Shown: piece by piece, positions 23,697-24,656 of the stretch
Layout of the letters: every line of letters begins with the position of its first letter
How positions within the stretch are numbered: the first letter of the stretch is position 1
From: a virus
Length of the DNA stretch: 29,215 nucleotides
Virus record (IMG/VR): IMGVR_UViG_3300032213_001083
Coordinates: 1 to 29,215 of that record
Reading direction: 5' to 3' (one strand)
Notes under the pieces: model-generated
The model's database searches: none
Seen by the model: the letters and a program-made list of their open reading frames with translations, nothing else
What the model was told of the DNA's origin: nothing
Translations under genes and position numbers: made by a program

Positions 23697-23947
23697 AACC
23701 ATCAACCAAAATACTCGCCATCGTTGGAATACTTCCGGTGATTGGTGACTTCATCGAGGACATGAATGATGAGAAGATATTCACAAAGTCAATAAAACAA
23801 AAGGCGAATATGCTACTCGATGAGATTCGACGAAGTGATAAGAGATTACTCGATGATGCCGGAGAAGAGATATGGAATCAACAAATGGATATACAAATGG
23901 CCTTCAGACAATGGCTACAAAACGCAGAAGATGACAAAGAACGATAA
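23693..23947 (+). CDS. Hypothetical protein (84 aa)
   Basis: The product starts MKPSTKILAIVGILPVIGDF and then is helical and charged (EKIFTKSIKQKANMLLDEIR). The N-terminal hydrophobic stretch is too short to be a sure membrane helix. It precedes the DnaA-IV-like gene with a 17-bp overlap, so it might be part of the replication unit. No family is recognised. Confidence 0.55.
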   Translation: MKPSTKILAIVGILPVIGDFIEDMNDEKIFTKSIKQKANMLLDEIRRSDKRLLDDAGEEIWNQQMDIQMAFRQWLQNAEDDKER

Positions 23948-24335
23948 AATAAAAGCAATTAAATACATCATCCAACGAGATGCATTGGATGTAACGAGTC
24001 GACACCAGGTATTGACAATGAGAAGGAGATACCTAATGGCTGAATTGAGAGCATTGAATCTCCCATTCCATTCCATTGGTGAACTATTCAATCGAGGTCA
24101 TGCAACAGTGATGCATAACATCAAGCAACACAATTGGTCCGTTGAGAGTGGTGATTTATATTACATTACCGTAATTCAAGATGATATCGATGAGCTTCAG
24201 GGAAGTGCTAATGTAAAAAAATTACGATTTTTGAGAGATGATATCCTCAAATGTAGATCATACAATCAGCTCAAATCAATCAAAAGGAGAGTGTTGAGGA
24301 ATGAATATGAGGAGCTCTTGAGCGGTGATGCGTGA
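23931..24335 (+). CDS. DnaA domain IV-like DNA-binding protein (candidate replication initiator)
   Basis: I start at ATG 23931 (MTKNDKIKAIKYIIQRDALD), within the end of the preceding gene. Residues 20-68 match the DNA-binding domain IV of DnaA: DVTSRHQVLTMRRRYLMAEL, then ALNLPFHSIGELFNRGHATV and MHNIKQH. The segment R55-G-H-A-T-V-M-H aligns with the DnaA signature GRDHTTVLHA, and the first helix R..vl...RRrYLMAELR with the R.....a.yL..el region. There is no AAA+ domain. The C-terminal 60 residues are helical. It sits directly before an iteron-rich gap and the primase-helicase, so it may bind the origin. A regulator role is the alternative. Confidence 0.7.
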   Translation: MTKNDKIKAIKYIIQRDALDVTSRHQVLTMRRRYLMAELRALNLPFHSIGELFNRGHATVMHNIKQHNWSVESGDLYYITVIQDDIDELQGSANVKKLRFLRDDILKCRSYNQLKSIKRRVLRNEYEELLSGDA

Positions 24336-24490
24336 CGATATGACGATGCTCTTATATACCTACTCTATACAACAAGTCGTTTTTTAGGAATGGGCATCGA
24401 GTTTTTTTATCGTCACATCGTCACGCTTTTACTCAAAGTTAATACCAATATAGTTTATAGGCGTGACAATAACATTTGAATATCGTCACG
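24330..24490 (+). other. Candidate replication origin: six CGTGACGAT-type iterons
   Basis: Copies of GTGACGAT or its complement occur at 24332-24339, 24341-24347 (TGACGAT), 24409-24416, 24417-24424, 24463-24470 (GTGACAAT) and 24482-24489. The first two and the next two form an inverted pair (24330-24347 and 24409-24426) matching at 17 of 18 positions. The last two form a second inverted pair (CGTGACAATA / TATCGTCACG). The region is noncoding, AT-rich between the copies, and lies between the DnaA-IV-like gene and the primase-helicase. It looks like an initiator-binding array and possible origin, or the operator of the primase unit. Confidence 0.55.
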
Positions 24491-24548
24491 AATTGACATA
24501 TTTGAGTCAAATTATTAGGTCAATAAAACTTTTATATTGAATAATTGT

Positions 24549-24556
24549 TATATTTG
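24549..24556 (+). promoter_or_regulatory. Promoter -7 box TATATTTG upstream of primase
   Basis: Full match to TAnnTTTG. No clear -33 TTG at 17-20 bp is seen, so activation by a bound protein (possibly the DnaA-IV-like one) is plausible. Transcription would start near 24563. Confidence 0.5.
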
Positions 24557-24562
24557 TATGTC

Positions 24563-24656
24563 AAATGCAGGGACAAAAAGGAAATTATTAGAATCCTCTT
24601 GGATTAGTAGTGCTGCATTCACGAACATCCAAGAGGATTTTTCATTTTAAATGCAG
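24563..24656 (+). ncRNA. Hairpin leader / possible attenuator or small RNA
   Basis: A perfect 12-bp stem, AATCCTCTTGGA (24592-24603) with TCCAAGAGGATT (24628-24639), loop of 24 nt, is followed by TTTTTC. If transcription starts at about 24563 this gives an RNA of about 80 nt with a terminator-like 3' end. The loop CTGCATT (24613-24619) is complementary to AATGCAG both upstream (24564-24570) and downstream (24650-24656), allowing two mutually exclusive pseudoknots. The downstream copy is 4 nt before the likely TTG start of primase. It may be an attenuator of primase, a translational switch, or a stand-alone small RNA. Confidence 0.4.

Follow-up and report, generated by a model that had tools for sequence, protein, structure and literature searches.

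A phage DnaA domain IV protein without AAA+ accompanies a putative iteron origin whose repeats go with the adjacent primase-helicase

The window, which is the whole 29,215-base IMG/VR virus record analysed here, encodes a 134-residue protein (DnaA-IV) that has the predicted fold of DnaA domain IV and retains key base-contact residues. Its gene, an iteron array that is a putative replication origin, and a primase-helicase gene follow one another in an order that is nearly constant across phage loci. Natural exchanges among these loci separate the iterons from DnaA-IV, and iteron type goes with the primase-helicase instead.

Results

DnaA-IV is a DnaA DNA-binding domain

The DnaA-IV frame runs from an ATG at 23931 to a TGA at 24335; there is a second in-frame ATG at 23820, and conservation across the family begins only at 23931. 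The Pfam profile Bac_DnaA_C (PF08299) matched residues 12-66 at its curated cut-off (E=1.8e-7; 31.5 bits, cut-off 31.5), reached 32.2 bits in a six-frame search, and scored up to 54 bits in DnaA-IV relatives. NCBIfam DnaA models aligned to the protein through their last domain only. The AlphaFold2 model (pLDDT 87) resembled DnaA domain IV most closely over residues 5-91, with 3pvp (Z 10.2), 1j1v (Z 10.1), and 8btg (Z 9.7) as best matches, which come from M. tuberculosis DnaA, E. coli DnaA, and a bacterial origin-opening complex, respectively; the 3pvp and 1j1v matches span 86 residues of the predicted fold. No AAA+ part is present in the 134 amino acids, which do not amount to a full-length DnaA with AAA+ domain III and N-terminal domain I. 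A preliminary description had read RRRYLMAELR (residues 31-40) and RGHATVMHNIKQH (residues 55-67) as signs of a phage DnaA domain IV lacking AAA+, and profile, predicted structure, and contact residues all bear this out.

DnaA contacts bases through R399, P423, D433, H434, T435, and H439 (PMC7561715). Of these, R399 reads TTA from the minor groove, and TnCACA is read by the recognition helix (PMC7561715; PMC5742627). The DnaA-IV family profile placed window residues R24 and H57 at E. coli R399 and H434. Three of the six contacts are kept in the window protein (R24, H57, and H62, the last for H439) and three are altered (P423 to H47, D433 to G56, and T435 to A58). Among 62 non-redundant relatives, H434 is conserved in 100%, G426 in 95%, R407 in 94%, and R399 in 90%; position T436 holds T or S in 100% and position T435 holds A, S, or C in 97%, and the residues at D433 and P423 are variable. 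Because R399 and H434 are kept while T435, D433, and P423 differ, we conclude that the product is a true DnaA-DBD without AAA+ and that, judging from these residues, its specificity for the 3' half of the box is probably altered. Compared to DnaA domain IV (PF08299; 1j1v, 3pvp), the protein shares the fold, the helix-turn-helix, and R399, R407, G426, H434, T436, and H439, but it lacks domains I-III, has the three substitutions listed above, and carries an extra conserved C-terminal tail. Residues 101-130 of this tail, beyond the DnaA fold, contain the motif D-I-L-x-C-x-S-Y-x-x-L-x-x-I-K-x-R followed by Y, which is present in many relatives and absent from L099-L107, loci that have no origin between the DnaA-IV and primase genes. 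Contact of the tail with the primase-helicase is possible.

An iteron array and a primase-helicase adjoin the gene

Five copies of CGTGACGAT (≤ 1 mismatch) occur in 24328-24500, compared to 0.09 expected, a count reached in 0 of 3000 shuffles. The word is not enriched across the whole window (8 versus 5.1 expected) and thus forms a local array (Table 1). The inverted repeat I1 (24330-24347 and 24409-24426) consists of two 18-nt arms, each holding two iterons and separated by 61 nt, and further copies complete the array. This layout recurs in the L109 group, with 18-nt arms 62 nt apart and other iterons (CGCGACAAA and CGTTACAAAA). The iteron array that had been noticed near the DnaA-IV gene is therefore real, and the gene stands in a phage replication region, next to this array and a primase-helicase.

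Table 1. Features of the replication region, in window coordinates
Feature	Position	Strand	Description
DnaA domain IV-only protein, 134 aa	23931..24335	+	DnaA-DBD fold, residues 5-91; extra conserved helical tail, 92-134
Putative origin of replication (iteron array)	24328..24500	.	Origin function inferred
Iteron CGTGACGAT	24331..24339	+	Overlaps stop codon of DnaA-IV gene
Degenerate second iteron ATGACGAT	24340..24347	+	Forms left 18-nt arm with first iteron
Iteron TGTGACGAT	24409..24417	-	Iteron and inverted-repeat searches
Iteron CGTGACGAT	24417..24425	-	Iteron and inverted-repeat searches
Iteron variant CGTGACAAT	24462..24470	+	Iteron search
Iteron CGTGACGAT	24482..24490	-	Iteron search
Structured leader (leader 1)	24553..24656	+	Long hairpin 24590-24641, then T-rich stretch
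Primase-helicase, 800 aa	24661..27063	+	BT4734-like_N, PriCT_1, Walker A GGSGK, predicted C-terminal winged helix; probable TTG start

Besides its two Pfam domains, the primase-helicase shows similarity to a PrimPol model, and its Walker A sequence NPNGGSGK is conserved. Primase and helicase domains are fused in one protein, as in the self-loading primase-helicases of the SaPI/P4 type. The predicted structure (pLDDT 56) matched the SaPI5 primase-helicase best, and also a PrimPol and the D5-like E5 helicase; winged-helix-like order appears at 728-776, where block pLDDT is 70-82 in a model of only 56 overall. SaPI Rep and SCCmec Cch2 bind iterons via a C-terminal domain (PMC7581432), and by analogy we propose the primase-helicase as the iteron-reading initiator. 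Since relatives were found in phages that infect Flavobacterium, Polaribacter, Nonlabens, Cellulophaga, Maribacter, and Bacteroides, the host of the window phage is likely a member of the Bacteroidota; on plasmids, the primase had only three matches, all distant.

Two kinds of structured leader were seen before the primase. The loop of leader 1 (CTGCATT, 24613-24619) is complementary to AATGCAG at both 24564-24570 and 24650-24656. Leader 1 also lies between iterons and primase in L006, L011, L044, L091, L105, L109, and L177, and its pairs of upstream segment and loop include AATGCAG/CTGCATT, GTTGCAG/CTGCAAC, AGGCAG/CTGCCT, and ATGGCGC/GCGCCAT. Because the complementarity holds with changed letters, a pseudoknot maintained by compensating changes is likely, and leader 1 could be an attenuator or riboswitch-like element; an Rfam search of the leader gave no match. 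In loci with leader 1 the primase apparently starts at TTG (24661 in the window), and type A loci (defined below) without leader 1 use ATG. Leader 2, which contains GGGGTTGTCGGAGGCATCCAC, precedes primases of both types (L010 at about 2325-2420, L155, L162, L166, and most class B loci); it has G-rich and C-rich stem ends and a T-run, and the loop sequence is the complement of a stretch lying directly upstream of where the primase starts (CACTGTT/AACAGTG; CTTGCTA/TAGCAAG).

The module is nearly constant

When loci were sought through the primase alone, 56 had usable upstream DNA, and 54 of them carried a DnaA-IV frame upstream, usually as the gene immediately preceding the origin. In the remaining two, L204 has another HTH protein and L211 has a helicase/HNH frame close to the start of its contig. 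This near-constant pairing argues for a role of DnaA-IV in replication initiation or its control. The DnaA-IV gene overlaps or abuts the primase in L099, L101, L103, and L107, and no iteron array could be seen upstream of the DnaA-IV gene in these loci; a primase of this type was not seen near DnaA-IV in L096 and L097, and DnaA-IV sits among other genes in L108 and L110. Upstream there were no conserved non-coding blocks, and the conserved stretches there proved to be small reading frames. Variable gene slots lie around the module: a frame that by eye resembles PAPS reductases follows DnaA-IV in L047 (5402-6250), a DNA methyltransferase-like frame, also assigned by eye, precedes it in L090 (4508-5590), and a 226-aa frame separates it from the primase in L206.

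Iteron type goes with the primase-helicase

Among 46 close relatives of the window locus, two origin types lie downstream of the same DnaA-IV gene: type A (CGTGACGAT) and type B, whose iterons differ from those of the window (GGTACACAT). The DnaA-IV proteins of L003 (type A) and L004 (type B) are 99% and 98% identical to the window protein, and the iterons of these loci are unrelated. Identity, averaged in turn within A, within B, and between the two types, was 0.83, 0.85, and 0.84 for DnaA-IV; 0.84, 0.87, 0.85 and 0.77, 0.78, 0.77 for upstream genes; 0.96, 0.96, 0.96 and 0.94, 0.97, 0.95 for downstream genes; and 0.95, 0.97, and 0.36 for the primase, which is the sole segregating gene among those tested. 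On the gene tree of DnaA-IV, iteron type switched about 13 times, and strong branches force at least 7 of these switches; shuffled types gave a mean of 14.7. The primase tree has a single change, so that the iterons are specific to the type of primase-helicase, as the pair analysis below also indicates. Within DnaA-IV, no residue from 1 to 130 tracks iteron type. Residues 132 and 134 do, because the exchanged cassette begins at the DnaA-IV stop codon; the first iteron lies across this stop, which places the cassette border at the gene end and alters the last residues. At its far side the cassette ends within the final primase codons, and these are common to types A and B.

The reciprocal arrangement also occurs. 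In L137 to L153 and L207, the primase is 75-77% identical to that of the window (93% in L139), DnaA-IV is only 24-38% identical, and the iterons are mostly the same as in the window (ATCGTCAC/CGTGACGA). We extended the comparison to pairs drawn from 87 non-redundant loci, which are not independent of one another. Iteron similarity was 0.00 in the 160 such pairs with DnaA-IV ≥70% and primase <50% identical, and 0.51 in the 162 such pairs with DnaA-IV <45% and primase ≥70% identical. Over the same non-independent pairs, the iteron had a partial correlation of 0.69 with the primase and of 0.16 with DnaA-IV.

This natural double dissociation contradicts iteron reading by DnaA-IV and shows that iteron type goes with the primase-helicase. 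Origin and primase are physically linked, and their co-variation may partly reflect hitch-hiking in a swapped block. The reciprocal case, in which the iteron is kept beside a very different DnaA-IV, lessens this concern and does not abolish it; even under block swap, one DnaA-IV protein serves two unrelated iteron sets. HNH homing endonucleases (NUMOD4 and HNH_3) were seen between iterons and primase in L006 (5748-6227), L007, L029, L030, L147 (4139-4501), and L148. Such endonucleases may drive the exchange of origin-primase cassettes.

Searches for a DnaA-IV binding site

DnaA boxes (TTWTNCACA) occurred in the phage loci at chance frequency (25 versus a median of 24 for permuted words), and an apparent depletion of boxes in phage DNA disappeared against the permuted words. 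Motifs common to type A and type B origins, such as CTCTTATATACC / CATATAC, were not above shuffles. In class B, the iteron GGTACACA looks like the 3' half of a DnaA box (TNCACA), but some B copies lack CACA.

Discussion

We infer that the array functions as an origin, that the primase-helicase binds its iterons, and that DnaA-IV has an accessory part. Taken as a whole, the reading in which the primase-helicase is the iteron-reading initiator and DnaA-IV an accessory DNA binder at another site seems to us reasonably probable. The module would be ordered as DnaA-IV gene, iteron origin of about 170-380 bp, and PrimPol/D5-type primase-helicase, and the last would read the iterons and load itself, as SaPI Rep does. 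DnaA-IV, which could not melt DNA itself because AAA+ is missing, would be a free-standing factor that binds a DnaA-box-like but altered site and either aids origin activation, by bending DNA or through an architectural effect, or regulates how the module is expressed. Several points speak against this reading: the searches for DnaA boxes and shared origin motifs gave no site for DnaA-IV, origin and primase are linked, some loci depart from the module order, the primase model is poor, and the compared pairs are not independent. More tentatively, and with some doubt on our side, this may be a widespread two-part phage system in which an AAA+-less DnaA-IV is the accessory initiator for a self-loading primase-helicase and cassettes of iterons and primase are swapped beneath it.

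The preliminary description had suggested that DnaA-IV itself recognises CGTGACGAT and recruits the primase-helicase. The adjacency of gene, iterons, and primase, the overlap of the first iteron with the DnaA-IV stop codon, and the sequence-specific DNA binding of DnaA domain IV all fit this idea. However, the same protein occurs with unrelated iterons, the same iteron stays with its primase beside proteins only 24-38% identical, no residue in 1-130 is linked to iteron type, and the type changes far more often on the DnaA-IV tree than on the primase tree. The co-variation of iteron and protein that would mark DnaA-IV as an iteron-reading initiator (Rep) is thus missing, and we consider this explanation very improbable. 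DnaA-IV may nonetheless recruit the helicase.

Two other roles were considered, and we judge each of them unlikely. DnaA-IV might act in host take-over, occupying host DnaA boxes at oriC or, having no AAA+, blocking DnaA oligomers, and so halt host initiation and free host replication proteins. Retention of R399, H434, and H439 is consistent with this, as are the lack of any site of its own in our search of phage DNA and the far greater divergence of DnaA-IV than of the primase, which host-directed proteins may show; yet nearly all relatives have A, S, or C in place of T435 and differ among themselves at D433 and P423 (with E. coli DnaA as the reference), and the near-constant position beside the phage origin would be left unexplained. 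Alternatively, and with a similarly low probability, DnaA-IV could be a transcription regulator that binds promoter DNA, either that of its own early/replication operon or that of the primase. DnaA can double as a transcription factor, the iterons are close to the primase start, and the structured leader before the primase in many loci suggests that expression is regulated, but the search found no repeated operator-like motif, and the L109 group has a hairpin with a T-run between DnaA-IV and primase.

Standalone DnaA_C proteins of the same type as DnaA-IV are already annotated in phage early regions. They include gp24 of Olleya phage Harreka_1 (a small Bac_DnaA_C protein, 45 bits, annotated DnaA), a small protein of Pelagibacter phage HTVC035P and others annotated 'DNA replication initiation (DnaA)', and PHROG 27829, 'DnaA-like replication initiation protein'. 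Their identity to the window protein is low, and the records examined lack an adjoining type A/B iteron origin and primase; with E allowed up to 1, PHROG 27829 gave no match to the window protein, and it matched the relative L101 at E=0.02. A DnaA has also been reported for Polaribacter phages P12002L/S (PMC4615864). A tblastn search of annotated phages returned no close DnaA-IV relatives, and a search of bacterial genomes with DnaA-IV found only two chlamydial DnaA proteins. In open papers we found nothing on a constant module of DnaA-IV, iteron origin, and primase-helicase or on the iteron dissociation, both of which are new to our knowledge.

In SaPI Rep, SCCmec Cch2, and D5 replicons, of which SaPI5 is nearest in fold, iterons likewise go with the primase-helicase; however, the SaPI-type origin is downstream of the primase gene (PMC7581432), whereas the putative window origin is upstream and has a near-constant DnaA-IV partner. 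Many iteron plasmids also need host DnaA beside their iterons, and in RK2, P1, F, and pSC101 the iterons likewise share an origin with a DnaA-type DNA-binding part (PMC4980987), which makes these plasmids, by analogy, the nearest functional precedent for an accessory DnaA part. Unlike these plasmids, the phage would bring its own DnaA part without the ATPase, no DnaA box was recognised, and the proposed initiator is a primase-helicase rather than a winged-helix Rep.

The module thus presents a DnaA DNA-binding domain that is split from its ATPase and retained as the near-constant companion of a different kind of initiator, and it is a natural experiment on which protein iterons go with. If the accessory role of DnaA-IV is true, the module would reveal the contribution of domain IV by itself to an origin; host DnaA hardly allows such a test, since its domain III is essential.
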